59,184 nucleotides of DNA. It comes from Acetofilamentum sp. GTDB lineage: Bacteria; Bacteroidota; Bacteroidia; Bacteroidales; DYOH01. The DNA lies in the NCBI GenBank assembly GCA_020720625.1, contig DYOH01000012.1, positions 1 through 59,184 of the forward strand, given 5' to 3'. The notes beneath the pieces were generated by a model. That model worked only from the letters and a program-made list of their open reading frames with translations, was not told the origin of the DNA and searched no databases. Both the position numbers and the translations under genes were made by a program. Numbering within the stretch: the first letter of the stretch is position 1; the number at the start of each line of letters is the position of its first letter. Of the stretch, positions 4,454 to 59,050 are shown piece after piece.

Positions 4454-5791
4454 ATGTTCAGCATTATTGGAAAATACACATCTGCCGATATTTTTATAGA
4501 CCAGATTGATGATGTAACCTATAGTCAGATTGAGCAACTGGTTAATCATCCGTCTTTTACGCAAAAAGTATCTATTATGCCCGATACACACGCCGGAGCT
4601 GCCAATTCTGTGATTGGATTTACTATGCCACTTAGCGATAGTCTTATTCCTAATACTGTGGGAGTAGATATTGGTTGTGGCATGCTATCGGCCCGTATTT
4701 TTGCCAACAAAGAAAACCTTGATTTAAAAGAAATTGATAATAAGATAAGAAAAGTGGTGCCTATTGGTAATCGCAACGGTACCCATAAAAATAATCCCGA
4801 AAATTTTGCCAAATCTTTCCCTTTCGAAAAAGCATCAGATTTGCTACACCAATTTACGCAAAAACTAAATATTAGGCTCGGAGCTAATTATACTCCGATT
4901 GAGTACAATTACCCCTGGTTCGAAAAACTTTGCAAACGGGTTGATTCTGACCTTAAATACACAGAAGCAAGTCTAGGTACCCTCGGTGGCGGTAATCATT
5001 TTATCGAGATTGGAGAATCTTCGCAAGATCAGTCGCTGTGGATAACCTTTCATAGCGGAAGCCGCAAAATCGGTGGAGATATTGCCAAATATCATTCACA
5101 CATAGCCGCTAAAAATGCAGGGTTCGACCAGGAAGGTTTTAAGAAGGAGTTCGAACGGATAAAAGCCGGCCTTGGGGCAGTAGATAAGAAGAAATTGGCC
5201 GATGAGCACAAAAAACTAAAGAGCAAATTTAAATCTCATTATCCGGACGTGCCTAACCAAATGGAGTTTTTGAGCGGACAATTGATGTACGATTATCTGG
5301 TAGATATGATTTTTGCGCAGTTCTATGCCCAAACAAATAGGTTGATGATGCTCAGGCATGGTGCACAGGTTTTGAAAGCTGATTTTTCGGAAACCATTGA
5401 AAGTACTCACAACTACATCGATCCCATAGATCTGATTATTCGTAAAGGAGCAATCAGAGCTTATAAAACCGACCAAATGATTATTCCTTTCAACATGGCC
5501 GACGGTATTCTTATTTGCAAAGGTAAAAGCAATCCCCTTTGGAATTATTCTGCACCTCACGGAGCCGGAAGAATTATGAGCCGCAATAAAGCCAAAGAGA
5601 ATATCAGCATGAAGGATTATGAAAACAGAATGAAGATGAGTGGGGTTTTTAGCAGTTCGATAAATACGGCCACGCTCGACGAAGCGCCGCAGGCCTATAA
5701 AAGTGCAGCAATTATCGAAAAAGCTATTGAAGCTACCGCTGAAATTCTATTTCGATTGAAGCCAATTTATAATCTTAAAGCCGGAAATTAA
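4454..5791 (+). CDS. rtcB: RtcB-family RNA ligase
   Basis: At 445 residues this is close to the usual RtcB length. The family joins RNA 2',3'-cyclic-phosphate (or 3'-phosphate) ends to 5'-OH ends using GTP and Mn2+. Conserved features are VGVDIGCGM (residues 69-77, metal-binding Asp72 and Cys75), GTLGGGNHFIEIG, the metal-site HSGSRKIGG, a THNYIDP segment, and APHGAGRIMSR with the guanylylated histidine at about residue 369. All key residues appear present. There is no rtcA or archease gene alongside. It follows a lipoprotein gene by one base and ends in a bidirectional terminator. Confidence 0.92.
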   Translation: MFSIIGKYTSADIFIDQIDDVTYSQIEQLVNHPSFTQKVSIMPDTHAGAANSVIGFTMPLSDSLIPNTVGVDIGCGMLSARIFANKENLDLKEIDNKIRKVVPIGNRNGTHKNNPENFAKSFPFEKASDLLHQFTQKLNIRLGANYTPIEYNYPWFEKLCKRVDSDLKYTEASLGTLGGGNHFIEIGESSQDQSLWITFHSGSRKIGGDIAKYHSHIAAKNAGFDQEGFKKEFERIKAGLGAVDKKKLADEHKKLKSKFKSHYPDVPNQMEFLSGQLMYDYLVDMIFAQFYAQTNRLMMLRHGAQVLKADFSETIESTHNYIDPIDLIIRKGAIRAYKTDQMIIPFNMADGILICKGKSNPLWNYSAPHGAGRIMSRNKAKENISMKDYENRMKMSGVFSSSINTATLDEAPQAYKSAAIIEKAIEATAEILFRLKPIYNLKAGN

Positions 5792-5803
5792 CTCCGGCTT
5801 TTT
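5777..5803. terminator. Bidirectional intrinsic terminator
   Basis: Arms AAAGCCGGA (5777-5785) and TCCGGCTTT (5793-5801) flank a 7-base loop and run into T's on the plus strand and A's on the minus strand. It overlaps the stop codons of rtcB and of the convergent lysoplasmalogenase-like gene, and can serve both. Confidence 0.85.
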
Positions 5804-6432
5804 ATGTGTGCTGAACTATTTTTATAGGCCGATACAAAGATTAGAGCCTGCGCCAGCCAATAGCAACACATAATATACCATTGGGCATAATTTATATTGC
5901 TATAAAAGCGGTTATAGGCAATAATACTGTCGCTTACAACAAATATAAGTGCTCCCCAAAAGGCGTAATTGGCAAAAGCCCCAGTGCTGCGTTGTGCAAA
6001 AGCCCGCCAAAGCATTATCAATATAAAACTCATATATACGGCTACCGGAACTGCCATATTGGCCAAACCCGGAAATAGGATTACATAATTTATGAGGCCC
6101 ACTAATAGCAATACAATACCCGAAAAAATAGAAGTTTCTTTGCTTCGGCTAAAGAATGCAAGGGTATAAAAAATGTGAGCTACCAGAAAAGCCAATAAAC
6201 CTCCTACAAATAAATGGTAGGGCAGTTCAAGCAGAATATCGCCCAAGGCCGAAAATAGAAAGCCTGCAATGATGTAGATATTATATTTCCCTTTAGGATT
6301 TATCAGCAATAGCAGCAATAGGATGGGTAGTGGCTTTGTTATCACTTTAAGCCAGAGATAATTGTTGTACAAACCGATAAAATATATAAACGCCAGAATA
6401 ACTACACTGCTAAAAATAAGTTTTGCTTTCAT
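5788..6432 (-). CDS. YhhN/TMEM86-family membrane protein (lysoplasmalogenase-like)
   Basis: The product is about 214 residues with roughly eight membrane segments and the family pattern LWLKVITKPLPILLLLLL ... GFLFSALGDILLEL ... FLVAHIFYTLAF. Characterised relatives hydrolyse the vinyl-ether bond of lysoplasmalogens. The Asp in SALGDILLE and the His in VAHIFY correspond to conserved positions. I chose the ATG at 6432; the frame extends to 6510 through a poor N-terminal sequence. The gene converges on rtcB and their stop codons overlap. No plasmalogen genes are in the window, so the substrate is open. Confidence 0.8.
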   Translation of the reverse strand: MKAKLIFSSVVILAFIYFIGLYNNYLWLKVITKPLPILLLLLLINPKGKYNIYIIAGFLFSALGDILLELPYHLFVGGLLAFLVAHIFYTLAFFSRSKETSIFSGIVLLLVGLINYVILFPGLANMAVPVAVYMSFILIMLWRAFAQRSTGAFANYAFWGALIFVVSDSIIAYNRFYSNINYAQWYIMCCYWLAQALIFVSAYKNSSAHIKSRS

Positions 6433-19575: not shown

Positions 19576-20481
19576 ATGTCGATAGAGATAAGGGAGCTAA
19601 GCAAACATTATGGTATGCAAAAGGCGCTCGATAAAGTAGATTTTAGTATACAACCAGGCGAGATAGTTGGATTTCTTGGACCAAATGGTGCCGGAAAATC
19701 AACATTGATGAAAATAATCTGCGGCTATATTCCGCCAACGGAGGGCACTGTTTTTGTAAATGGCTTGGATGTACGTAAAAAACCTTTGGAAGTACAAAAA
19801 CTGATTGGTTATCTTCCGGAGCATAATCCCTTGTATAATGAACTTTACATAAAAGAATCTCTTGCATTTGCTGCCCGTATTCATGGCATTCGGAGAAATA
19901 TTCCTTCTTTGGTTTCAGAAATGATCAGGCTTGTTGGGTTAGAGCGTGAGCAACACAAAAAAATTGGTGCTTTATCAAAAGGTTACAGACAAAGGGTAGG
20001 GCTTGCACAAGCCTTGATACATCAACCCGGTATATTAATTCTTGATGAGCCCACTACGGGCTTGGATCCCAATCAGATTATTGAAATAAGGGATTTAATA
20101 AAGCAATTGGGGAAGGAAAAAACAGTAATGCTTTCCACGCACATTATGCAGGAGGTTGAGGCTGTGGCAGCAAAAGTAATAATTATAAATAAAGGTAAAT
20201 TGGTGGCCAACGATTCTACCCGCAATATGCAGCAAAGCCATAATAAACAAATAATTACTTTGGAGCTAAACAAAACGGCCGATGATGTTGAATTCAGCCA
20301 TCTGACAGATTTGGTGGAATTGCGCAAAATCTCAGAAATGCAATGGATTTTGGTATTTAGTTCAGAAAAAGATCCCCGTGAAACTATTTTTGATTGGGCA
20401 GTAAAGAGGAATTTGGCTGTTTTAACCTTGCTTAGGCATGATAAAACATTAGAAGAAGTGTTTCGCGAGCTTACAAAATAA
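19576..20481 (+). CDS. gldA: ABC transporter ATPase, GldA-like
   Basis: The product is 301 residues, a single ABC ATPase domain with Walker A (GPNGAGKST, near residue 35), the signature LSKGYRQRVGLAQAL near 137, Walker B (LILDEPTTGLDPNQI) and the switch His in STHIMQE. Overall it matches GldA, the ATPase of the GldAFG complex that Flavobacterium johnsoniae needs for gliding; GldA homologues are widespread in Bacteroidota, including non-gliders. The permease partners GldF and GldG are not adjacent. A TATCTTTC box 20 bases before the ATG may be its -7 element. Confidence 0.82.
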   Translation: MSIEIRELSKHYGMQKALDKVDFSIQPGEIVGFLGPNGAGKSTLMKIICGYIPPTEGTVFVNGLDVRKKPLEVQKLIGYLPEHNPLYNELYIKESLAFAARIHGIRRNIPSLVSEMIRLVGLEREQHKKIGALSKGYRQRVGLAQALIHQPGILILDEPTTGLDPNQIIEIRDLIKQLGKEKTVMLSTHIMQEVEAVAAKVIIINKGKLVANDSTRNMQQSHNKQIITLELNKTADDVEFSHLTDLVELRKISEMQWILVFSSEKDPRETIFDWAVKRNLAVLTLLRHDKTLEEVFRELTK

Positions 20482-35935: not shown

Positions 35936-36961
35936 ATGGATTTAGACATACATTCACCACAAGGTGGAAAACAAGACGAAGAGTTTGAGAGGAAACTTCG
36001 TCCGGCACATTTTGAAGATTTTCAGGGACAAGCAAAGGTACTCGAGAATCTAAAAATATTTGTTCAGGCGGCTAAAATGCGCAAGGAAGCCCTGGATCAT
36101 GTGCTTTTACACGGCCCTCCCGGACTTGGCAAAACCACTCTATCGAACATCATTGCCAACGAACTGGGTGTGAACATGAAACTTACTTCGGGACCAGTGC
36201 TCGACAAACCCGGCGATTTGGCCGGTTTACTTACTAATCTTGATGAACACGATGTGTTGTTTATCGACGAAATTCATAGACTAAGCCCCGTGGTCGAAGA
36301 ATATCTCTATTCGGCAATGGAAGATTATCGCATCGATATCATGCTTGACAAAGGCCCAAGTGCACGAAGTATTCAGCTAACGCTTAATCCGTTTACCCTC
36401 ATTGGTGCAACTACCCGAAGCGGTTTGCTCACAAGTCCGCTCAGGGCGCGTTTTGGAATTAATGCACATCTGGAGTACTATGATTTAGATATTTTAACCG
36501 GCATTATTCAGCGTTCGGCCTACATCCTAAAAGTGCCTATTCTGGAAGCCGCAGCCATAGAGATTGCCCGTAGAAGTAGGGGAACACCGCGTATTGCCAA
36601 TGCATTGCTTAGAAGAGTAAGAGATTTTGCACAAGTTAAAGGTAGCGGAAAAATCGATAGCGAAATAACGCATTTTGCGCTTGATGCCCTTAATATTGAC
36701 AAACGAGGGCTTGATCAAATGGATAATAAAATTCTGCTCACCATTATAGATAAGTTTAAAGGTGGGCCCGTTGGAGTAAATACCATTGCAACTGCCGTTG
36801 GTGAAGATGGAGGAACCATTGAAGAGGTTTACGAGCCATATCTGATCAAAGAAGGCTTTATTAATCGTACTCCACGTGGGAGAGAAGTTACCGATTTGGC
36901 TTATAAACATTTGGGTAAAATAAGATATAATGATATTCAGCAGCGACTTTTCGACGAATAA
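35936..36961 (+). CDS. ruvB: Holliday junction DNA helicase RuvB
   Basis: The product is 341 residues, normal length. RuvB is the AAA+ motor that drives branch migration with RuvA. Walker A ([12 protein letters not shown], near residue 62), Walker B ([20 protein letters not shown]), sensor I ([17 protein letters not shown]) and the arginine finger region are intact. The winged-helix end includes [14 protein letters not shown]. ruvA and ruvC are not adjacent. It is monocistronic between two terminators. Confidence 0.97.
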
Positions 36962-37023
36962 TGTTTCGGCAAAAATACTAACTCTTTTTTTATTGGTTTG
37001 AATAGCGGTATCCTATAAAACTT

Positions 37024-37065
37024 AAACAATAAAACCCGAATATATTTCGGGTTTTATTGTTTTTA
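37024..37065. terminator. Bidirectional terminator between ruvB and riboflavin synthase
   Basis: A perfect 17-bp stem (37024-37040 with 37046-37062) around a 5-base loop carries A-runs on the left and T-runs on the right. It can end both ruvB and the convergent minus-strand operon. Confidence 0.88.
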
Positions 37066-37074
37066 ATCTGAGCG

Positions 37075-37674
37075 CTATTTTTTCAGGTAATGTTTCATCA
37101 TTTTAGCAATATATTTTCCTATCACATCAAATTCTATGTTTACAATTGTACCCACTTTAAAAGTATGAAAATTGGTTATTTCGTATGTAAATGGAATAAT
37201 TGCTACCTGAAAGGAGTTTTCTCTGGAATTAACCACCGTTAAACTAACACCGTTTACAGAAACCGAACCTTTTTCCACAGTGATATAATCTTCCTGAGCC
37301 GGAATATAATCAAAAGTATAGTACCAGCTGCCATCTGCTTCTTCTACTTTTGAACAAACAGCTGTTTGATCAACATGTCCTTGCACAATATGTCCGTCGA
37401 GCAAACTATCCGGGCGCATACTTCTTTCAACATTTACTTTATCGCTAAGCTGCAAATTACCAAGGTTGCTTTTCTCGAGGGTTTCTTTAATGGCCGTAAC
37501 GGTGTAATTATTATTGCTTATGTCGACCACAGTAAGACAAACACCATTGTGAGAAACACTTTGGTCAATTTTTAATTCATTCACAAACGAACACGACATA
37601 GTGATGTGCAAATTACCTTGTTCTTGCCTTAATGCTACTACTTTAGCAGCTTCTTCTACAATTCCTGAAAACAT
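37075..37674 (-). CDS. ribE: Riboflavin synthase alpha chain
   Basis: The product is 199 residues with two repeated lumazine-binding barrels: MFSGIVEEAAKVVAL ... VSHNGVCLTVVDI and the second LDGHIVQGHVDQTAV ... VSVNGVSLTVVNS. It dismutates two 6,7-dimethyl-8-ribityllumazines to riboflavin and a diaminopyrimidine. It is last on the minus strand after the threonine-synthase-like gene, 90 bases away, so it may be read with that operon. No FMN riboswitch is visible upstream. Confidence 0.95.
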   Translation of the reverse strand: MFSGIVEEAAKVVALRQEQGNLHITMSCSFVNELKIDQSVSHNGVCLTVVDISNNNYTVTAIKETLEKSNLGNLQLSDKVNVERSMRPDSLLDGHIVQGHVDQTAVCSKVEEADGSWYYTFDYIPAQEDYITVEKGSVSVNGVSLTVVNSRENSFQVAIIPFTYEITNFHTFKVGTIVNIEFDVIGKYIAKMMKHYLKK

Positions 37675-37764
37675 TTTATGCTGATTTATTATTTGTCTCT
37701 AAAGTACTATTTTAAACTAAGTTTCGAATATTAAAACATGCTAAAACTTTTAACTACGAACTTA

Positions 37765-39087
37765 CTAATATTCCATCATCGGACGCCATACAAAATCGCG
37801 GTATTTTTCTCTGTCGAAGCGCTGAGTATCTGCTACCGATGTAATCTCTTCTGTAGTATAAGAAACTTGTTCGAGGAAAGAGATTGCCCTTCGAACGCCT
37901 TCGCCCATATTGATAAATACAGTTTGTTCGTTGTCGATGGCCTTGTTTTTTAGAGCTTCGAAAAAGCCCAAAATGGCAGCTGCCGATGCCGGCCCAATTT
38001 TTACTGCTTTTTCGTAAGCCACCAAACGTGCAACTTCTATTGTTGTTTCTTCATTAATGGCAAAATACTCTCCATTTGTGCGTTTTACCAGACGTGCCAG
38101 ATGAGGGTATAATCCCGGATTACCTGTGGCAATAGTGGGAATAAAAACTTTGGGGTTTTCGTAAATAGGGTATTCATTTTCCCATCCTTCGGGAAAACCT
38201 TTGGCTTTGGCATTATTCCAAGCATCCACCTGTGGGGCACAATAATGTCCCTGAATAAAAATCATTTTAGGCATTTTTCCCAAAATGCCGGTATCTCCAA
38301 AATCGTGGAATGCCTTCTCGATGGCCAGAGGAGCAGTTCCGCCACTAACAGCCTGGATATAAACATCGGGCATTTTGCCTAATTGCCGCAAAATCTCAAA
38401 GGCCGATGTTTTTTTGGATTCCAAACGGAGTGGGTCTAAATTTCCTAATGAAATTAGTATTCCGTGTTTTTTTGCATAATCGGCAGCTACCTTTTTGGCA
38501 TAAGCATAATCGCCTTTTACTATATATACTTTTTGTCCTAATGACCCTATATGAACAAAGTTTTCGTGCAAAGCATCCTGCGGAACAAAGATAGATGCCG
38601 AAATACCTGCTTTGGCAAGATATTGTGCAACAGAATTGGCTGTATTTCCGGTACTGGCCACAACGTATTCTTTTATACCTTGTTCTTTTAAAACACTGGC
38701 AATTAGCGTACCTCCTTTATCTTTGAATGTTCCGGTGGCCGGACTGTAATCATTGCGGTTTACATATACTTTTAGGTTAAGACCATGTTTTTCCTTTGCA
38801 AATTTTTCGAGAAAGCTCCACTGCTGTATTGGTGATACTCCTTCACCGTCGGAAACAATATTTTCCGGATTTTCAAGAGGCAGAAAATCAAAATAATGCC
38901 ATAAACTATCTGGCTTTGTTTTCTGGGCAATGAGCTCTTTCAGTTTTTGCTTATCCGTATTGTAAACTGTATAGATATTGCTTTTTCCGCATTTTGGGCA
39001 TTTTTGCCCTTCGGCAAACCATTCTTTAAAACCTGGAATGTGGTTTCCGCAAGATCGACATTCAAAATAAAATTTGGTATTACTCAT
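37765..39087 (-). CDS. Threonine-synthase-like PLP enzyme, probable cysteate synthase
   Basis: The product is about 440 residues from the ATG at 39087 (MSNTKFYFECRSCGNHI). An N-terminal zinc ribbon (CRSCGNHI ... CPKCGKSN) precedes a fold-type II PLP domain. The PLP lysine is in SPATGTFKDKGGTL, the substrate loop is STGNTANSVAQYLAKAG, and the phosphate-binding Gly loop is AVSGGTAPLA. Threonine synthase is the default call. However, no thrA or thrB is nearby and the operon holds sulfate reduction and an alpha-oxoamine synthase. Cysteate synthases that use O-phosphoserine and sulfite belong to this family, so that role is preferred here by inference. Confidence 0.6.
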   Translation of the reverse strand: MSNTKFYFECRSCGNHIPGFKEWFAEGQKCPKCGKSNIYTVYNTDKQKLKELIAQKTKPDSLWHYFDFLPLENPENIVSDGEGVSPIQQWSFLEKFAKEKHGLNLKVYVNRNDYSPATGTFKDKGGTLIASVLKEQGIKEYVVASTGNTANSVAQYLAKAGISASIFVPQDALHENFVHIGSLGQKVYIVKGDYAYAKKVAADYAKKHGILISLGNLDPLRLESKKTSAFEILRQLGKMPDVYIQAVSGGTAPLAIEKAFHDFGDTGILGKMPKMIFIQGHYCAPQVDAWNNAKAKGFPEGWENEYPIYENPKVFIPTIATGNPGLYPHLARLVKRTNGEYFAINEETTIEVARLVAYEKAVKIGPASAAAILGFFEALKNKAIDNEQTVFINMGEGVRRAISFLEQVSYTTEEITSVADTQRFDREKYRDFVWRPMMEY

Positions 39088-39142
39088 GATATAATGTTTT
39101 ATTTTTTCGTAAATCAATTTTTTTTCTGTATACAAACATATT

Positions 39143-40930
39143 CTAAAAATAGATTGAATATAGGGTTATTACAGCCACAAACATGTAAATAAACGTGAGC
39201 GGTGTGCCCACTTTTAGATAATCCTTAAATTTATATCCTCCCGGACCATAAATCATCATATTGGTTTGATATCCGATTGGTGTCATAAAATTAGCTGCTG
39301 CCGAATAAGCAACAAGCAATGCCATACCATGTGGCGAAAGATTTAAATCGTTGGCAAGGCTTATAACAATTGGGAAAATTAGCGCTACCGCAGCTTTGTT
39401 GGTTATAAATGCAGCCAAAAGGGCGTTTATAAAATAAATGCCAAAAAGAAGTATTAGCGTACCATGGGGAAGAAATAGTTTAATAAATTGTTGTGCAATA
39501 AATTCGGCCACTCCGGTTTTGGTCATTGCGATACCCAGAGAGAGCGAAAGAGCAATAATGAGCGCCAAATCGTAATCTATACTTTTGGGTAATTCTTTGG
39601 GCGATGATATTTTAAACATTAAACTTAATAGGAGTAAGGTAATTAAACCCATAAATAGTTTAATAATACCAAGCGACGAAAGCACAATAATACCAATGGT
39701 TCCGCCAATAAGAATGAATGCTTTCAGAAATCCGAGTTTTCTGATTTCCTTAACCTGAGAAATCAAAAAGAAATCTTTCTGGCTTCTTTCAAGAATCATA
39801 AAATTGGGGCCTGCGAGCAATAGAATGGCATCGCCGCTCTGGATAATCACATTTTCTATCTTCCCGGAAAGCACCTCTCCATTTCTATGAATAGCTATTA
39901 TGGTGGCATCGTATTGTTTCCTGAAATTTACATACTTAATTGCTTTGCCAATAAAGCTGGAATTATGCGAAATGGCTATTTCAACCACCTGTGTTTCTGC
40001 TTTTTGAGCAAACATACCAACCGATGGAATTACCAAGCCGTTGTTTGTATTTACCATTTCTGCAATTTGTTGCACATTTCCGGCAAAAACAAGGGTATCG
40101 TTTTCGAAAATAACAATATTGGGAGATGCGGGAATAGAGCGCTGGTCGGCACGTACTATTTCTACAATGTCTAAACCTTCGGCATTAAAAAACTCAGTTT
40201 CTTTAATTACTTTACCAATAAGCGGACAGCCTGGTTTTACTTCAACTTCTACAATATATTTTCTATCCTGATCATGCAATTTTTCCAGAGCGGCTTTTCT
40301 ATCCGGAAGCAGTTTATTTGATGCCAGGCTTAGATAGATAAATCCAATAAAAGCCATGGGTATTCCTACTGCTACAAACTCAAAAATGCCCAAAGGTTCA
40401 ACATTCGGAATTACTTTTTGGTCGAGCAATAAGCCGCCTACAATAAGGTTTGTGGATGTTCCTACCAAAGTAACACAACCACCCAGAATTGTAGCGTAGG
40501 ATAAGGGGATAAGGAATTTAGAAACCGAAACCTGATTTCTTTTGCTCCAGGTGTGCACATACGGCATCATTAAGGCTACCAAAGGTGTATTATTTAAAAA
40601 TGCTGAAAAACTACCGGTAATCCACATCATTCGTCTGCGAAATTGCCCCGGGCTTTTTACACCATTAAATAATTTGTCGAATAATCCATTAAGAACCCCT
40701 GTTTGCCTGTATATTTCGCCTACCAATAAAAGCATGATAATGATGGCAATTTGTTCGTTGGCCAAACCTGCCAATATTTCGGAAGGCGTAAGCACCCTTG
40801 TAATACCCAAAAAAATGACAGCAATTACAAAGCTATAGCTTGCTCCAACAAATTCGGTATATAAACTAATAAGTATAAAGATAAGTGCAGCTATAACCAG
40901 ATATGCATCAGGAAAAACAAGCATTTGCAT
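39143..40930 (-). CDS. SLC13/DASS-type permease with TrkA-C domains, probable sulfate transporter
   Basis: The product is 595 residues. Membrane blocks at about 1-210 and 400-595 contain the family motifs FLNNTPLVALMMPYV, TILGGCVTLVGTSTNLIVGG and NKAAVALIFPIVI. Two TrkA-C (RCK-C) domains lie between them near 215-300 and 305-385. This layout is found in putative sulfate and anion permeases of the SLC13 group. It abuts the APS reductase gene (its start lies next to that gene's stop), which supports sulfate as substrate. The ion coupling is not readable. Confidence 0.8.
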   Translation of the reverse strand: MQMLVFPDAYLVIAALIFILISLYTEFVGASYSFVIAVIFLGITRVLTPSEILAGLANEQIAIIIMLLLVGEIYRQTGVLNGLFDKLFNGVKSPGQFRRRMMWITGSFSAFLNNTPLVALMMPYVHTWSKRNQVSVSKFLIPLSYATILGGCVTLVGTSTNLIVGGLLLDQKVIPNVEPLGIFEFVAVGIPMAFIGFIYLSLASNKLLPDRKAALEKLHDQDRKYIVEVEVKPGCPLIGKVIKETEFFNAEGLDIVEIVRADQRSIPASPNIVIFENDTLVFAGNVQQIAEMVNTNNGLVIPSVGMFAQKAETQVVEIAISHNSSFIGKAIKYVNFRKQYDATIIAIHRNGEVLSGKIENVIIQSGDAILLLAGPNFMILERSQKDFFLISQVKEIRKLGFLKAFILIGGTIGIIVLSSLGIIKLFMGLITLLLLSLMFKISSPKELPKSIDYDLALIIALSLSLGIAMTKTGVAEFIAQQFIKLFLPHGTLILLFGIYFINALLAAFITNKAAVALIFPIVISLANDLNLSPHGMALLVAYSAAANFMTPIGYQTNMMIYGPGGYKFKDYLKVGTPLTFIYMFVAVITLYSIYF

Positions 40931-41677
40931 TTAATTTATCTTTTTGGTATTTATTGTAAGATTTGTATTTAATTGTTCGGGCGCATGCAAGCCACATTCT
41001 TTTTTGGAATTATCTTCCCACCACCATCGGCCGGCACGAAAATCTTCACCTGGTTTAATGGCTCTTGTACATGGTTGACAGCCAATGCTTACAAATCCCT
41101 GGTCAAAGAGTTTATTGTATGGAATATCATTGTTTTTGATAAACTCCATGGTTTCTTCAAGCGACCAATATAGCAGAGGATTGTATTTTATTAAATCGAA
41201 ACTCTCGTCGTATTGAAATAAGTCCAAATCTTTACGTGCATCCGATTGCGAAGCACGTAATCCGGTAATCCATACTTTTACATCTTTTAAGGCACGCTTT
41301 AGAGGCAATACCTTACGTATATTGCAGCATTCTTTTCGGTTTTCTACAGATTCGTAAAAACTGAATGGGCCTTTTTCGCTCATCATTTTCTCTACCAAAT
41401 CTTTTTGGGGATAATAGCAAATAATGCTTTTATTGTATTTCTGAATCGTTTTTTCAAAAACTTTGTATGTTTCTTCAAATAATCGTCCGGTATCGAGGGT
41501 AAAAACTTTAATATCCAGGTTGCTATTAAAAATGTAATGCGAAATAACCTGATCTTCTTGTCCAAAACTCGTAGAAAAGGCTATGTTGCCTTTATATTGC
41601 TTATTTAAAAATGTAAGGGTTTCTTCAATAGATGTTTGGGCAAATTGTTGGCTTAACTGTAAAGCAATCTCTTTCAT
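40931..41677 (-). CDS. cysH: Assimilatory adenylyl-sulfate (APS) reductase, CysH family
   Basis: The product is 248 residues. It reduces APS to sulfite with thioredoxin. The sulfonucleotide loop is IAFSTSFGQEDQVI and the specificity region is VFTLDTGRLFEETY. It has the [4Fe-4S] cysteines CC in ENRKECCNIRKVLPL and CxxC in SIGCQPCTRAI, and the catalytic Cys in KKECGLHAPE. The cluster cysteines mark it as the APS-type rather than the PAPS-type enzyme. ATP sulfurylase and sulfite reductase genes are absent from the window. The permease gene starts immediately at its stop. Confidence 0.92.
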   Translation of the reverse strand: MKEIALQLSQQFAQTSIEETLTFLNKQYKGNIAFSTSFGQEDQVISHYIFNSNLDIKVFTLDTGRLFEETYKVFEKTIQKYNKSIICYYPQKDLVEKMMSEKGPFSFYESVENRKECCNIRKVLPLKRALKDVKVWITGLRASQSDARKDLDLFQYDESFDLIKYNPLLYWSLEETMEFIKNNDIPYNKLFDQGFVSIGCQPCTRAIKPGEDFRAGRWWWEDNSKKECGLHAPEQLNTNLTINTKKIN

Positions 41678-41701
41678 TATGGTTTATTAAATAAATTGAT
41701 A

Positions 41702-41752
41702 CAAAAAAAAAACTACATTTGATTTTGTTCAAAAAAACAGTTCAAATGTAGT
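41702..41752 (-). terminator. Hairpin with T-run between the oxoamine synthase and APS reductase genes
   Basis: Arms 41712-41722 (ACTACATTTGA) and 41742-41752 (TCAAATGTAGT) pair exactly over 11 bp. On the minus strand the stem is followed by about ten T's. It could end most transcripts after the first gene, so the cluster may be read as one gene plus an operon. Each arm also contains TACATTTG, a match to the -7 box. Confidence 0.7.
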
Positions 41753-41778
41753 AAATTTTTATAAAAGGCCGAAGTTTA

Positions 41779-43017
41779 TTAAACCATCTTCACTTCAGTA
41801 CCATCATATTTTCCTTGTTTAAGTTTTACAGCCACCTCGTCGAATGCCTTTACAGTATATGCAACGTCTTCTAAAGAGTGAGCAGCCGTAGGAATTAAAC
41901 GAATAAGAATAATTCCCTTGGGAACAACCGGATATACAACTGCAGAGCTAAAGATACCATAATTTTCGCGTAAATCGAGAATAATATTGGTTGCCTGTGC
42001 GGGTTCGCCATGGAAAATAACAGGAGTAACCGGAGAGCCACTGTGTCCTAAATCAAAACCGGCTTTTCTTAAACCTTCCTGAAGTGCATTAACAATAACC
42101 CAAAGTTTTTTTCTTTGTTCGCCACTACGAACATATTCTAAACGCTTAAGAGCCCCAATAACCATAGGCATTGGCAGCGCTTTGGCAAAAATTTGCGAAC
42201 GCATGCTGTAACGAAAATAGTCGATAATGTGTTTTGGTCCGGCAACAAAACCGCCAATTCCGGCCATTGCTTTAGCAAAAGTACCAAAATAAACGTCGAT
42301 TTCATCCTGAACACCTAGAAAATCGGCAGTACCGCGACCTTGTTCACCCATAGAGCCAAAACCATGAGCATCGTCGATTAGTAAACGAAATTCGTATTTT
42401 TTCTTTAAAGCAGCAATACTTCTTAAATCGCCTAAATCGCCGCTCATTCCATAAACACCTTCTGTAATAACGAGTATTCCTCCGGGTGTTCCTTCAATCA
42501 TTTTGGTGGCTTTTTGTAATCGATCTTCCAGCTGAGCCATGTCGTTGTGCTGATATACAAGGCGTTTACCAAAATGCAAACGAGTACCATCGTAAATACA
42601 TGCATGATTTTCGTTATCGTATATAACCACATCATGCCTGTCGAGTAAAGAGTCGATAATGGAAACCATTCCCTGATAGCCATAATTAAGCAAAAATGCA
42701 TCTTCTTTTTGCTCAATAGCGGCAAGTTCTTGCTCCAATTTTTCGTGATAAGAAGTGTGTCCCGACATTAATCGGGCACCCATTGGATAAGCCAATCCCC
42801 AATCTTTGGCTGCCTGAGCATCTACTTGTCGAATTTCGGGCATATTGGCAAGCCCCAAATAATTATTGATACTCCAAACTAGAACTTCTTTTCCTCTAAA
42901 AGTCATACGGGGACCTATTTCTCCCTCTAATTTCGGAAATGCGAAGTAACCTTCTGCTACATCACGATATTTTCCTAGTGGCGTTTTTTTGACGTCTAAT
43001 TTTTTAAAAATGTCCAC
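41779..43017 (-). CDS. Alpha-oxoamine synthase, probable cysteate fatty-acyltransferase
   Basis: The product is about 412 residues from the GTG at 43017 (reading MDIFKKLDVKKTPLG). The frame runs on to a TTG at 43044, but that would place the start inside a promoter box. It is a fold-type I PLP enzyme of the serine palmitoyltransferase/KBL/AONS group: ENHACIYDGTRL, DDAHGFGSMG and the PLP lysine in FGTFAKAMAGIGGF. The stretch GYFAFPKLEGEIGPRMTF is, as I recall it, typical of the Bacteroidota group that condenses cysteate with a fatty-acyl thioester to form 3-keto-capnine. Ordinary serine palmitoyltransferase or glycine acetyltransferase activity cannot be excluded by sequence. Confidence 0.72.
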   Translation of the reverse strand: MDIFKKLDVKKTPLGKYRDVAEGYFAFPKLEGEIGPRMTFRGKEVLVWSINNYLGLANMPEIRQVDAQAAKDWGLAYPMGARLMSGHTSYHEKLEQELAAIEQKEDAFLLNYGYQGMVSIIDSLLDRHDVVIYDNENHACIYDGTRLHFGKRLVYQHNDMAQLEDRLQKATKMIEGTPGGILVITEGVYGMSGDLGDLRSIAALKKKYEFRLLIDDAHGFGSMGEQGRGTADFLGVQDEIDVYFGTFAKAMAGIGGFVAGPKHIIDYFRYSMRSQIFAKALPMPMVIGALKRLEYVRSGEQRKKLWVIVNALQEGLRKAGFDLGHSGSPVTPVIFHGEPAQATNIILDLRENYGIFSSAVVYPVVPKGIILIRLIPTAAHSLEDVAYTVKAFDEVAVKLKQGKYDGTEVKMV

Positions 43018-43041
43018 GGTTTCAAAATTTAAATTCGGGTA

Positions 43042-43119
43042 CAAATGTAGCTTATTTCTTTTAATTTGGTAAAAAATTGGAAGGTATTATTTATCATACT
43101 GTCAATTGTTTTATCTTTG
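43042..43119. promoter_or_regulatory. Divergent -7 promoter boxes
   Basis: TACATTTG on the minus strand (43042-43049) lies 25 bases before the oxoamine synthase GTG, and TATCTTTG on the plus strand (43112-43119) lies 20 bases before the VOC gene ATG. Both match TAnnTTTG exactly. No clear TTTG was found 19 bases further upstream of either. Confidence 0.55.
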
Positions 43120-43139
43120 CCCGCAAACATTTTAAAGAT

Positions 43140-44198
43140 ATGGCAAAATTAATTACAGGTATTCAGCAAATAGGTATTGGAGTAAGTAATGTTCACGAAG
43201 CATGGAGATGGTATAGAGAGGCATTTGGCATGCGCGTACCAATTTTTGAAGAGGCGGCAACAGCGGCTCTTATGCTGCCGTATACGGGGGGAGAGCCCCG
43301 CGACAGACATGCTGTTTTGGCTGTTAACTTGCAAGGGGGAAGCGGTTTCGAAATTTGGCAGTATACCGGCAGAGTGCCACAAGCACCCGCTTTTCAGATT
43401 CAATGGGGTGATTTAGGGATATTGGCCGCCAAAATCAGAAGCAATCAAATTGAAAATACATACAACAAGTTCGAAAGCAATAATTACTACATCAAAACTA
43501 CACTCCAAAATGCTCCAAACGGTAAGAAACATTTTTTTGTAAACGACCCTTATGGTAATTTGTTTGAAGTGGTAGAAGATGAATACGTATATGCTGCTGG
43601 TAATGAGCTCACAGGTGGGCCATTTGGGGCGGTAATTGGTGTTTCCGATATTGATAAGGCCATGAAATTGTATGCTGACATTTTGGGCTACAATCAAATT
43701 ATTTCTGACAAAACAGGCGTTTTCGATGATTTTAAAGGCATTAGTGGTGGCGAACGTGCATTTAGAAGGGTTTTACTTGGTCATGAAAAGCCCCGCAAAG
43801 GAGCATTTAGTGAGATGTTTGGATACAGCCAACTCGAATTGGTGCAACTTACCGAAGAAAAGGGACGCAAAGTTTTCGAAAACCGAATGTGGGGTGATTT
43901 AGGATACATACATCTTTGCTTTGATATTATTAAGATGGCCGATTTGCGCCAAGAATGCAAAGAAAATGGATTTCCATTTACTGTGGATGCAGGAGATTAT
44001 TTCGATATGGGTGAAGCCGCTGGTACATTTGCCTATATCGAAGACCCTGATGGTACTTTGATTGAATTTGTGGAGACTTTTAAGATTCCCATTTTTAAGA
44101 AAATTGGGTGGTATCTGAATCTGAAAAAGCGCGATGCAACAAAAGTTATTCCTAAATGGATGCTGAAAACTTTGCGCTTTAATGCCGTGAAAGATTAA
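43140..44198 (+). CDS. Two-domain VOC (glyoxalase/dioxygenase superfamily) protein
   Basis: The product is 352 residues from the ATG at 43140 (MAKLITGIQQIGIGVSNV), 20 bases after a TATCTTTG box. It has two VOC modules, residues about 5-150 (HFFVNDPYGNLFEVVED) and 155-320 (GTFAYIEDPDGTLIEFVETF). The repeated D-P-x-G-x-x-x-E-x pattern supplies metal ligands, so it is likely metal-dependent. The substrate is unknown. It is divergent from the oxoamine synthase gene and sits close to dprA; a link to lipid metabolism is only suggested by position. Confidence 0.78.
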   Translation: MAKLITGIQQIGIGVSNVHEAWRWYREAFGMRVPIFEEAATAALMLPYTGGEPRDRHAVLAVNLQGGSGFEIWQYTGRVPQAPAFQIQWGDLGILAAKIRSNQIENTYNKFESNNYYIKTTLQNAPNGKKHFFVNDPYGNLFEVVEDEYVYAAGNELTGGPFGAVIGVSDIDKAMKLYADILGYNQIISDKTGVFDDFKGISGGERAFRRVLLGHEKPRKGAFSEMFGYSQLELVQLTEEKGRKVFENRMWGDLGYIHLCFDIIKMADLRQECKENGFPFTVDAGDYFDMGEAAGTFAYIEDPDGTLIEFVETFKIPIFKKIGWYLNLKKRDATKVIPKWMLKTLRFNAVKD

Positions 44199-45343: not shown

Positions 45344-45674
45344 CTTGTTTTTCCGCTAATTTATTGACAAATTAAACCACTATTTAAACAATTAAATAAA
45401 ACTTTGCATAAGCCCAAAGATTATTCCCTTCTTATGAAACATTATTTTTGCTTACGCCGATTCGGCATGCCATGTAAGATTTTTATCATATAGTAGAATT
45501 GCATGGAGAATATTTTTTTTGCGAAATATTTCATTGAATATGCATTCCAGGCGACAGATATTCCTGCTAGCTTAATCTTTTCAAATTTCAGTTTGATATT
45601 TTTTTATGGAAATCGCATTTATCCAAAAACAAAAAATATTACTTAACTTTGTAATTGATTTGCTAAAAAAGAAT
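45344..45674. promoter_or_regulatory. 331-bp spacer with a -7 promoter box
   Basis: TAACTTTG at 45644-45651 is an exact TAnnTTTG box 23 bases before the ATG at 45675, and it argues against the upstream start at 45606. The rest is AT-rich with no gene seen. Confidence 0.5.
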
Positions 45675-46829
45675 ATGGCAGCTAAAAAGAAAAATACATG
45701 GCCCGAAGGACCATTTATCAATCCGTTTACAGATTTCGGGTTTAAAAAATTGTTTGGTTCCGAACCAAACAAAGACTTGCTTATTGATTTTTTAAACGAG
45801 CTGCTTCGCCAACACCATGTGCAAATTAGCGATTTAAGCTATAAACGCACCGAGCATTTGGGCAATACCGCCCAAGACCGTAAAGCCATTTACGATTTGT
45901 ATTGCGAAAATGAGCACGGCGAAAAATTTATTGTTGAACTGCAAAAAGCGGAGCAAAAATTCTTTAAAGACCGCACGGTATTTTATTCCACTTTTCCAAT
46001 ACAAGAGCAAGCCATTAAGGGCGAATGGGATTACGAACTTAAAGCGGTGTATGCAGTAGCCATTTTAGACTTTGCTTTTAGAGACGAAGACAAGGATGAA
46101 ACAGTGCTTAGCCATGTAAAACTTCTCGATGTAAACACCCACAAAGTTTTCTACCACAAACTTACATACGTGTATGTGCAAATGGAGAACTTCACAAAAA
46201 ACATCGACGATTTGGAAACTCATCTGGATAAATGGTTATACGTGTTAAAGCATTTGGATAAATTTGAACGCATACCCGAACATATACGCGAAAAAGTATT
46301 CGAAAAAGTATTTCAGATAGCTCGCTACGATAATTTGAGCCGAATTGAGCAAGAAGCCTACGAAAGCAGCATAAAATACTACCGCGATATGAAGAATTCT
46401 TTCGACACCGCATTTGAAAAAGGGAAAAATGCATCCATTAAACTATTAATGGAAGCCGAAAGCAAAACAAAACAAGCCGAAAGCAAAACAAAACAAGCCG
46501 AAAACAAAGCAAAACAAGCCGAAAACAAAGCAAAGAAAGCCGAAAATCTGGCAAGGAAGGCCAAAGTTAAAGCTGAACAAGAGCGAAAAGATAAGAAAGA
46601 AGCCGAGACCAAAGCCAAAAAGGCTGTAGTCAAGGCCAAACTGGCCGAATCTAAAGCCATGCAGGCCGAATCTAAAGTTAAAGAAGCTGAAGCAAAAGTA
46701 GAGCAAGAGCGGAATGAAAAGATTGAGGCTATGCATAAACTAGCCGCTAAAATGAAAAGATATGGGGAGCCAGTGGATGAAATCATTAAAGAAACAGGCT
46801 TAAGTCGTGAAGAAATAGAAAAATTGTAA
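45675..46829 (+). CDS. Rpn/PD-(D/E)XK nuclease-family protein with coiled-coil tail
   Basis: The product is 384 residues from the ATG at 45675 (MAAKKKNTWPEGPFINP). Residues 1-250 match the PD-(D/E)XK nuclease (transposase-like, Rpn) family: NPFTDFGFKKLFGSE, then the metal-binding pattern D-x(n)-ExQ in DRKAIYDLYCEN and GEKFIVELQKAE. Members are typically tied to genome rearrangement. Residues about 255-350 are a charged coiled coil built of heptads (KQAENKA). The end, YGEPVDEIIKETGLSREEI, is typical of the family's C-terminal helix. It lies between dprA and tRNA-fMet. Confidence 0.85.
   Translation: MAAKKKNTWPEGPFINPFTDFGFKKLFGSEPNKDLLIDFLNELLRQHHVQISDLSYKRTEHLGNTAQDRKAIYDLYCENEHGEKFIVELQKAEQKFFKDRTVFYSTFPIQEQAIKGEWDYELKAVYAVAILDFAFRDEDKDETVLSHVKLLDVNTHKVFYHKLTYVYVQMENFTKNIDDLETHLDKWLYVLKHLDKFERIPEHIREKVFEKVFQIARYDNLSRIEQEAYESSIKYYRDMKNSFDTAFEKGKNASIKLLMEAESKTKQAESKTKQAENKAKQAENKAKKAENLARKAKVKAEQERKDKKEAETKAKKAVVKAKLAESKAMQAESKVKEAEAKVEQERNEKIEAMHKLAAKMKRYGEPVDEIIKETGLSREEIEKL
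46455..46559 (+). repeat. Five tandem 21-bp units in the Rpn-family gene
   Basis: Units start at 46455, 46476, 46497, 46518 and 46539. Each opens GCCGAAA and encodes the heptad AESKTKQ/AENKAKQ. The first two are identical and later ones differ by only a few bases, so this is recent DNA-level duplication rather than just a coiled-coil protein. Confidence 0.85.
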
Positions 46830-57115: not shown

Positions 57116-59050
57116 ATGAGCGTAAAAACATCAGGAATACTAGATATTCCATTGCAAGACCACGAAAACGATAAATTGCAGATTCTTTCTTTTGAAATGG
57201 CACTAAACGAATTTGTGCGAAAAACATCTACGCCAATTTCTATTGCTCTGCAGGGCGAATGGGGCAGCGGTAAAACCTCGCTGATGAACCGGCTAAATTA
57301 TGAAATCTGCAAAAACGAGAACGCAACATCTTATGGCATCTGGCTCAATACCTGGCATTATGCGCTACTAAAAAATAAAGATGATATTCTGGAAGAGATT
57401 ATTTTTGCCCTGATAAACGAGGTATTAGCTATTTCTAAAAAAGAGTATCCCGATAAGTTTAAAACACTGGCAAAAGATATATATATAATTGGCAGAAATA
57501 TATTTAAGGGAATTTCTAAAATTGCCGTAAAAACTGCTGTTTCGCAGGTAAATTCAGAATTAGCCAATGCAGTAGAAGAAACTGTCTTTTCAGAAAAAGA
57601 AGACGCTAGCTATAGTTTAAACGACTTAAAGAATAAGCTTAGCGATTTAGTTTCGCAATTAATGCAGCGAAATACCGAAAATGCCAAATCTCAAAAGTCT
57701 ATCATATTTTTTATCGATGATTTAGATCGCATTGAGCCGGCTTTGGCTGTAAATATCTTAGAATTGTTGAAAAATATTTTCGACATAGAGCATTGCATTT
57801 TTATGCTGGCCATAGATTACGATGTGGTAGTAAAAGGATTAAAACACAAATTTGGAGAGCTAAACGAGCAGAATGAGCGTGAGTTCAGGTCGTTTTTCGA
57901 TAAAATTATTCAATTGCCTTTTCAGATGCCCATTGCATCGTATAATATTATAGAGTATATAAAAGATTTACTGGAATCTGTTGATTATATTACCGAAACA
58001 GAAGCAAAAAATGATGGTTTTACAAATTCTTTAGTGAGATTCACCAATTTAACTGTTGGAACTAACCCTCGCAGTATTAAGCGTTTAGTAAATACACTTT
58101 CGTTTGTGAATTTGCTTATACGCGCAAAATCGAAGCTCGAAAATAGGGAACATGCCATTTCAAGCGATTACAAGCAGATTATTTATGCGCTAACATGTTT
58201 GCAATCTGCGTTTCCTGATATTTTTAATTTATTAACCTATAACCCCAATATTGAGAACTGGAATTTTGAATTTGCGCGAAAAAAAAATATTGAAGTAAAT
58301 GAGCATAACTCCTTAATATGGGAGGGTATTATTGTGGGATTTTGCAATAAAACAGAGTATTTAAAGAGAAATAGCTACAATATAATAAGCATCATCAAGG
58401 AAATGCAGATTATTGCCGAAAATAATCACCGCAAACTTCACGAAATTTTGCCCGAAACTGTAGAATTGTTATCGGTTACAAATATCAAATCAGACAAAAT
58501 CAGACCAAAGTTAGAGATAAACGAAATAAGGGTATTGTATGCTTTAAATCAGCGATTATTGCCCGCTATTGAGCAAAAACTGGCCGAACCACTTAAATTT
58601 ATTGAAAGAAAGGGCCGAATGATTGCCAAAATTACCTATAAATTTGACGAGCAAACCAAAAACAATTCCATAAGTCTTTCGGTATCAGTAAAGCATAACA
58701 GCATTTACCTAAAAGTAGGGGCTAGTATCGAACTTTTTGCTATTTCGGAAACAGACAAAGACGTTTGGCAAATTGTAGTAGATAAGGGAAAAACGGAGGT
58801 ATTCAATCAACTATCTGCCGATTTTCTGTCGCTCGAGAAAAAATACCAACAGATAAAGTTGGCCAACACAACCCGAAGTGGATTATCCCTAAAGAATAGC
58901 GCTGTATACTTAGATCAAAATTTTCAGGTAGTTGCCGAAAATGCCGAATATCTTTATGCTGAAGAGTGTATTTGCGAAATTAGTAGTTTTGTAGTGGATT
59001 ATATGATATTGCTATATAAAATGAATGAACTTAATTGGCAAACCAAATAA
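57116..59050 (+). CDS. KAP-family P-loop NTPase
   Basis: The product is 644 residues. Walker A is GEWGSGKTSLMNRL (47-60), with the family's IWLNTWHYALLK after it. Walker B, IIFFIDDLDRIEP, lies near 197-208 and a sensor-like stretch NPRSIKRLVNTLSFVN near 323. KAP NTPases include animal Kidins220 and phage-exclusion PifA, and many sit in mobile or defence regions. Unlike many KAP proteins it shows no strong membrane helices between the Walker motifs; only a weak one near 120-150. The C-terminal 170 residues are unrecognised. Confidence 0.88.
   Translation: MSVKTSGILDIPLQDHENDKLQILSFEMALNEFVRKTSTPISIALQGEWGSGKTSLMNRLNYEICKNENATSYGIWLNTWHYALLKNKDDILEEIIFALINEVLAISKKEYPDKFKTLAKDIYIIGRNIFKGISKIAVKTAVSQVNSELANAVEETVFSEKEDASYSLNDLKNKLSDLVSQLMQRNTENAKSQKSIIFFIDDLDRIEPALAVNILELLKNIFDIEHCIFMLAIDYDVVVKGLKHKFGELNEQNEREFRSFFDKIIQLPFQMPIASYNIIEYIKDLLESVDYITETEAKNDGFTNSLVRFTNLTVGTNPRSIKRLVNTLSFVNLLIRAKSKLENREHAISSDYKQIIYALTCLQSAFPDIFNLLTYNPNIENWNFEFARKKNIEVNEHNSLIWEGIIVGFCNKTEYLKRNSYNIISIIKEMQIIAENNHRKLHEILPETVELLSVTNIKSDKIRPKLEINEIRVLYALNQRLLPAIEQKLAEPLKFIERKGRMIAKITYKFDEQTKNNSISLSVSVKHNSIYLKVGASIELFAISETDKDVWQIVVDKGKTEVFNQLSADFLSLEKKYQQIKLANTTRSGLSLKNSAVYLDQNFQVVAENAEYLYAEECICEISSFVVDYMILLYKMNELNWQTK

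Follow-up and report, generated by a model that had tools for sequence, protein, structure and literature searches.

The sulfonolipid pathway of the capnine type is already known, and CapABC were reportedly named in a 2022 paper. Sulfonolipids have been tied to gliding, to a rosette signal of choanoflagellates, and to inflammation (PMC11211663; PMC3463246), and the activity of one acyltransferase, SulA of Alistipes finegoldii (Protein Data Bank (PDB) entry 7u7h), has been demonstrated (PMC9304779). For the cysteate step, Alistipes and Odoribacter are described as using, instead of CapA, an enzyme homologous to the archaeal cysteate synthase (PMC10191378), and PDB entry 9k3c bears the title 'CapA2 from Alistipes finegoldii'. 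Here we analysed a stretch of 59,184 nucleotides from Acetofilamentum sp. (contig DYOH01000012.1 of assembly GCA_020720625.1; hereafter the window), in which four genes at positions 37765-43017 probably constitute an operon for sulfonolipid synthesis that produces its own sulfite and includes a cysteate synthase from a third lineage. From the sequence evidence we put the probability of this reading at about 0.78.

The four genes of the run are as follows, ThrL being the name used here for the last gene product:

41779-43017, minus strand: sulA/capB cysteate fatty acyltransferase (an alpha-oxoamine synthase), 412 residues, GTG start at 43017
40931-41677, minus strand: adenylylsulfate (APS) reductase of the iron-sulfur type, 248 residues
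39143-40930, minus strand: SLC13/CitMHS-type permease with two TrkA_C domains, 595 residues, candidate sulfate importer
37765-39087, minus strand: ThrL, a pyridoxal phosphate (PLP) enzyme of the threonine synthase fold with zinc-ribbon-like N-terminal cysteines, 440 residues, candidate third-lineage cysteate synthase

A preliminary description of this DNA had placed the four genes on one strand, and their open reading frames were confirmed in that order and at those positions. The genes are separated by 101, 0, and 55 nucleotides, with the permease start touching the reductase stop, and an alternative TTG start at 43044 would lengthen SulA by nine residues. The Pfam matches are far beyond chance, namely Aminotran_1_2 for SulA (107 bits), PAPS_reduct for the reductase (159 bits), CitMHS for the permease (172 bits), and PALP for ThrL (148 bits). 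The same gene order is kept in another genome of the genus, where SulA is cut by a contig end.

The acyltransferase gives the clearest result. A PDB search with the window protein returned 7u7h at 566.7 bits and 28eh, a cysteate-C-fatty acyltransferase by its PDB name, at 550 bits, the next chains scoring 223 bits; 254 of 404 aligned residues (63%) are identical to 7u7h. All 12 of the active-site residues that were taken from the A. finegoldii study and checked are identical in the window protein, including Lys281 (K279 here by alignment), which is alanine in serine palmitoyltransferase (SPT) and was proposed as the mark separating SulA from that enzyme (PMC9304779). The K281A change has been published as abolishing 3-ketocapnine formation. 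All 102 collected SulA proteins carry the Lys281 motif, which is lacking from the two other oxoamine synthases that BLAST placed in their cluster. In a tree of 21 sequences, the window protein lies inside the SulA/cysteate fatty acyltransferase (CFAT) clade together with 7u7h and 28eh (support 100/100), and SPT (3a2b), three 2-amino-3-ketobutyrate ligases (KBL), and 8-amino-7-oxononanoate synthase (AONS, 8s1y) all fall outside. Against the NCBIfam models for KBL, BioF, SPT, and 5-aminolevulinate synthase, the protein scores below every cut-off, and the KBL of the same genome is a different gene (666 bits). An identity as SPT, KBL, or AONS is thus ruled out by the PDB scores and the tree, so that the grouping with KBL or SPT that was named in advance as speaking against a capnine-type synthesis cluster did not occur, and that earlier interpretation of the cluster is supported. 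We regard the oxoamine synthase as firmly identified by its sequence as a cysteate fatty acyltransferase, and formation of 3-ketocapnine is predicted. Another SulA locus (L040) has an SPT-like gene (4968-6218; placed with 3a2b in the tree, 100/99) at a distance of 2.6 kb from sulA, so sphingolipids and sulfonolipids may both be made by a single genome; the two have been described as possibly mutually exclusive (PMC10191378).

The second gene fits the production of sulfite, as had been proposed at the outset. The reductase scores 244 bits against TIGR02055 (cut-off 235.3), also exceeds the cut-off of PRK02090 ('phosphoadenylyl-sulfate reductase'), and carries CCxxRKxxP and GCxxCT, 82 residues apart, which are both cysteine pairs of the [4Fe-4S] cluster. 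The full iron-sulfur APS cysteine pattern is missing in four of 17 collected reductases (L187, L193, L200, and L219, beside SulA and ThrL), so other genomes may use phosphoadenylylsulfate (PAPS). The permease is taken as a relative of the DASS/SLC13 symporters because it scores below the cut-off of TIGR00785, the DASS/SLC13 anion symporter model (89 bits, cut-off 198.6), and above those of Pfam CitMHS (172.1 bits) and Na_sulph_symp (34.2 bits, cut-off 27), with TrkA_C matched twice. A homologue stands beside cysN in eight loci, and sequence context makes it a candidate for sulfate import. CysQ, CysD, and CysN of the source genome, all scoring above a cut-off, are grouped on another contig, and the operon reductase and CysD are the only two PF01507 proteins of this genome.

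The source genome yielded no sulfite reductase domain (PF01077, NIR_SIR), a domain that was matched in 11 of 14 control genomes. Its three PALP proteins are ThrL, TrpB, and a protein nearest to BhcB/serine dehydratases, with no CysK, CysM, or cystathionine beta-synthase (CBS) among them. With neither a sulfite reductase nor a PALP-fold cysteine synthase detected in the genome, no fate other than cysteate is evident for the operon's sulfite, and the sulfate route appears to serve the sulfonolipid alone. The assembly is 98.5% complete in 143 contigs; one gene could be missing through a gap, and the loss of two is less likely. The O-acetylhomoserine sulfhydrylase of this genome would allow the use of imported sulfide.

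The phylogeny of ThrL had been suggested earlier as a check, and it placed the protein apart from the threonine synthases. A profile built from the window protein and two relatives was searched against 393 genomes of the order (E<=1e-50) and found the family in 72 of them, at 404 bits or more in all except one fragment of 357 bits. A search with the single ThrL protein among 198 genomes of the phylum (E<=1e-60) found the source genome only, a result that says little because the three-sequence profile recovered so many. The tree comprised 42 sequences, among them 19 of the 72 ThrL proteins plus those of L049 and L057 (41 of the 72 plus the same two are in alignment A2); a long-branched dehydratase row, six of 10 thrC rows, and five of eight CapA rows were omitted. 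ThrL forms a single clade (98/99), whose sister, at 100/99, is the archaeal-type/CapA2 group of cysteate synthases, which contains 9k3c and, from the phylum sample, two TIGR03844 proteins. Outside this pair of clades lie the CBS-like CapA1 and threonine synthases of four kinds. Approximately unbiased (AU) tests rejected trees in which ThrL was forced together with all threonine synthases (p-AU 0.015) or with the zinc-ribbon ones (p-AU 0.038). With p-values this moderate and an archaeal branch of such length, we take the grouping of ThrL with the archaeal/CapA2 cysteate synthases as probable and not as certain. A motif points the same way: Q-x5-P-x4-W occurs in three of three archaeal-type rows and is absent from all 18 rows of threonine synthases and CapA. 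Among ThrL proteins of more than 380 residues, 61 of 68 have its ThrL form, Q-x3-C-x-P-x4-W. TIGR03844 itself, the archaeal-type cysteate synthase model, is exceeded in two of the 198 phylum genomes (405-410 bits) and by no protein of the source genome.

Gene neighbourhoods connect ThrL with SulA. The 72 ThrL stretches comprise the window and 71 others of 4-20 kb, 30 of which are under 12 kb. SulA is present in 22 of them, at least one of APS reductase, CysD, CysN, CysQ, and the permease in 25, and either SulA or sulfate genes in 37; by chance fewer than one SulA would be expected (an estimate from a median stretch of 14 kb and genomes of 2-7 Mb). Both genes share one strand in 18 of 23 measured loci, spacings being taken between open frames; L229 holds both genes, its spacing being left out as its ThrL falls outside the BLAST cluster. 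ThrL lies directly 3' of SulA in eight loci (L049, L198, L222-L225, L227, and L233), with -4 to 98 nucleotides from the stop to the first ATG; in this second measurement the score for L193 refers to a different oxoamine synthase of that locus, whose SulA and ThrL share one strand. In five loci (L057, L166, L167, L168, and L177), a block of VOC, APS reductase, CysD, CysN, SLC13, CysQ, and ThrL is divergent from SulA. Across the 393 genomes, 63 of the 72 that have ThrL and 216 of the 321 that lack it encode SulA (Fisher odds ratio 3.4, p 0.0005, uncorrected for relatedness).

The collected SulA loci number 102, of which 80 came from a SulA scan (the unbiased set) and 22 were reached through ThrL. 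A CapA-like gene is present in eight, ThrL in 24, and both in none. The CapA-like gene stands directly before SulA in seven loci, and ThrL stands directly after it in others; the CapA-like protein of L082 scores 504 bits against NF053679, below the cut-off of 600. Judged by gene order, ThrL seems to occupy the place beside SulA that CapA has elsewhere. The mutual exclusion is not significant alone, because the unbiased set gives just eight CapA-like and two ThrL loci.

These results suggest the following route. Sulfate would enter through the SLC13 permease, the ATP sulfurylase CysDN, encoded on the other contig, would convert it to APS, and the operon reductase would reduce APS to sulfite. 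ThrL would then join O-phosphoserine and sulfite into cysteate, and SulA would condense cysteate with a fatty acyl thioester into 3-ketocapnine, a step that its family strongly supports. A later reduction and N-acylation would complete the lipid, with genes not located at the locus. The sequences speak directly to the identity of SulA, the type of the APS reductase, the presence of ATP sulfurylase, and the conserved linkage, and the permease and ThrL steps are proposed from context.

Several observations weigh against a cysteate synthase in this place. ThrL reaches no NCBIfam cut-off among 25 of 28 families shown, and its closest profile is the threonine synthase PRK08197 (176.9 bits, cut-off 303), above TIGR03844 (112.7 bits, cut-off 324.9) and with TIGR00260 at 101.7 bits (cut-off 167.1). 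In its predicted structure (pLDDT 93), ThrL resembles experimentally solved threonine synthases more closely (Z as high as 40.1) than it does CapA2 (Z 34.1), and the fold alone does not decide the reaction. Among positions conserved in all groups, four match the threonine synthases and none the archaeal group alone, and 13 and 13 further positions are conserved in only one of the two groups. The long archaeal branch (2.8) could bias the tree. Neither SulA nor sulfate genes appear in 35 of the 72 ThrL stretches, ThrL is near SulA in only two of the 80 unbiased loci (a CapA-like gene in eight), and at E<=1e-100 no SulA was found in nine of the 72 ThrL genomes, of which five are at least 92% complete. 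Moreover, ThrL is the sole thrC-like protein of the source genome, the two weaker matches being the dehydratase-like protein and TrpB. One could therefore suppose that ThrL is the organism's threonine synthase, standing beside sulA by accident, with cysteate coming from elsewhere or being taken up, and the profile, the fold, and the sole thrC-like status all favour this. We nevertheless consider it unlikely. The best thrB match (TIGR00191) in the source genome is 26.4 bits, far from the cut-off of 168.25, in a search that did not extend to the phosphoglycerate-mutase-like homoserine kinase, and homoserine dehydrogenase stands in a run with a MetX-like gene (under cut-offs) and O-acetylhomoserine sulfhydrylase (over its cut-off), which points to methionine. 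A thrC over cut-off is encoded elsewhere in 40 of the 72 ThrL genomes, and seven zinc-ribbon threonine synthases from ThrL genomes, of which five exceed the TIGR00260 cut-off and two narrowly miss it, form a separate clade. Being the sole thrC-like protein thus does not make ThrL a threonine synthase, and the repeated adjacency to SulA, together with the tree and the motif shared with CapA2, also argues for cysteate synthesis. The second outcome that the preliminary description had named as counting against it, a lone threonine synthase, literally applies, since ThrL is the only thrC-like protein here; the absence of a thrB over cut-off and the thrC of other ThrL genomes speak for another role.

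The other two alternatives concern the fate of sulfite and of cysteate. The reductase and permease might serve ordinary sulfate assimilation to cysteine, leaving only sulA and thrL to the lipid; genes of these types are common in assimilation, and a sulfite reductase could have been lost from so fragmented an assembly. Against this stand the missing NIR_SIR domain and cysteine synthases, and the recurrent association of the reductase, cysD, cysN, the permease, and cysQ with both ThrL and SulA elsewhere among the genomes, which makes such a division of labour quite improbable. Cysteate could also feed another sulfonate (taurine, sulfolactate, or a thiol like coenzyme M), with SulA as a side branch. 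Coenzyme M is the product fed by archaeal cysteate synthases, and the nine ThrL genomes without SulA would suit this idea; they may have another use of cysteate, or SulA may have been lost or strongly changed. ThrL directly after SulA in eight loci, and no recognised gene for such a sulfonate among the 45 commonest neighbour families (most named by eye), render it very improbable. We therefore retain the sulfonolipid operon as the preferred interpretation. Five of the genomes with ThrL and no SulA at that threshold (G219, G233, G371, G475, and G497) are 92-99% complete, and a further genome (G253) of the same family as the source has neither gene.

Two neighbours of SulA deserve attention as putative partners. 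A two-domain protein of the VOC (glyoxalase-fold) type is encoded next to the operon, by a gene that the preliminary description did not list, and occurs in 14 of the 102 SulA loci, nine with ThrL, two with a CapA-like gene, and three with neither; 15 relatives were collected, and alignment A3 holds 15 of the 16 proteins. The window protein has weak NCBIfam glyoxalase matches (39.8 bits at best), and three relatives have no NCBIfam match at 1e-20 or 1e-25. Its model (pLDDT 90.5) is nearest to GLOD4 and glyoxalase I, two-domain glyoxalase-like proteins. Given this recurrence, the protein may act in sulfonolipid synthesis as a so far undescribed component. A family of short-chain dehydrogenases/reductases (SDR), which is not in the window, lies near SulA in 18 of 102 loci and is a candidate for the ketocapnine reductase; its member in L078 exceeds the cut-off of PRK06181. 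The ketocapnine reductase genes of two species are described as not adjacent to cfat and Cys (PMC11211663).

The features that flank the operon are listed below:

43140-44198, plus strand: two-domain VOC (glyoxalase-fold) protein, 352 residues, divergent from sulA
37075-37674, minus strand: riboflavin synthase, the next gene after thrL
37024-37062, minus strand: hairpin of 17 pairs with a T-rich tail, after riboflavin synthase, a match to the consensus only

A scan of 36900-43300 found 13 terminator-like sites (5.5 +/- 2.1 in shuffled sequence), and the hairpin is possibly the transcription end of the minus-strand run. Promoter-like sites were not above the shuffle level (20 found, 22.6 expected). 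The gldA-like gene reported earlier in the window was recovered at 19576-20478 (TIGR03522, 424.5 bits, cut-off 402.6). Elsewhere in the window are a PD-(D/E)XK nuclease of the Rpn family that contains an extended series of charged seven-residue repeats (45606-46826) and a P-loop NTPase of the KAP type that weakly resembles the anti-phage ATPase QatA (57116-59047; 72 of 600 bits).

Our literature search, made by title and passages and covering few subscription journals, found nothing that connects sulfonolipids to an enzyme resembling threonine synthase, to an APS reductase, or to an absent sulfite reductase, and no published test of the ThrL branch. With somewhat better than even odds, we suggest that ThrL is a third family of cysteate synthase in Bacteroidota, that the sulfate route ends at sulfite solely for the lipid and is uncoupled from cysteine, and that the VOC protein is a further undescribed member. 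If this is true, sulfur would be assimilated here in an unusual way, and 35S-sulfate would be expected in the lipid and not in cysteine. In genomes dependent on ThrL, the cysteate step would go unnoticed in marker searches based on CapA1 or CapA2, and the nearest profile would label ThrL a threonine synthase.

Compared with the described systems, the window SulA shows no functional difference, as far as sequence can tell, from the SulA/CapB/CFAT enzymes (A. finegoldii alfi_1224, F. johnsoniae Fjoh_2419, and 28eh). The setting differs: here sulA is the first gene of a run in which an APS reductase comes second, whereas a divergently oriented bamD adjoins it in 32 of 102 SulA loci, which appears to be a conserved address of sulA outside the ThrL type. 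In loci of that kind, rpoZ-like, coaBC, DUF4835, recN, and fabI genes often follow, the names coming from reading the sequences. ThrL shares its fold, a sister clade, and the Q-x5-P-x4-W motif with the CapA2/archaeal synthases (9k3c; TIGR03844) and would perform the same pathway step; it differs in its zinc-ribbon-like N-terminus (CxxC...CxxC), and the branches between them are long, with 50.5 bits to 9k3c. CapA1 (CBS-like, C. ochracea 9k2p; NF053679) belongs to another PLP branch (100/100), and as an identity for ThrL it is rejected, NF053679 being absent from the 25 of 28 families shown and the clade being different. With the threonine synthases (TIGR00260; PRK08197), ThrL has the fold and the PLP lysine motif in common and lies in a different clade. 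By sequence, ThrL is probably a separate branch beside the archaeal/CapA2 synthases and apart from CapA1. ATP sulfurylase and APS reductase are common to this route and to assimilatory sulfate reduction (cysDN-cysH), which here ends at sulfite in the assembly. Overall, the sulfonolipid pathway is the known part, and the new part would be the branch of cysteate synthase and the sulfate-to-sulfite supply bundled with it.

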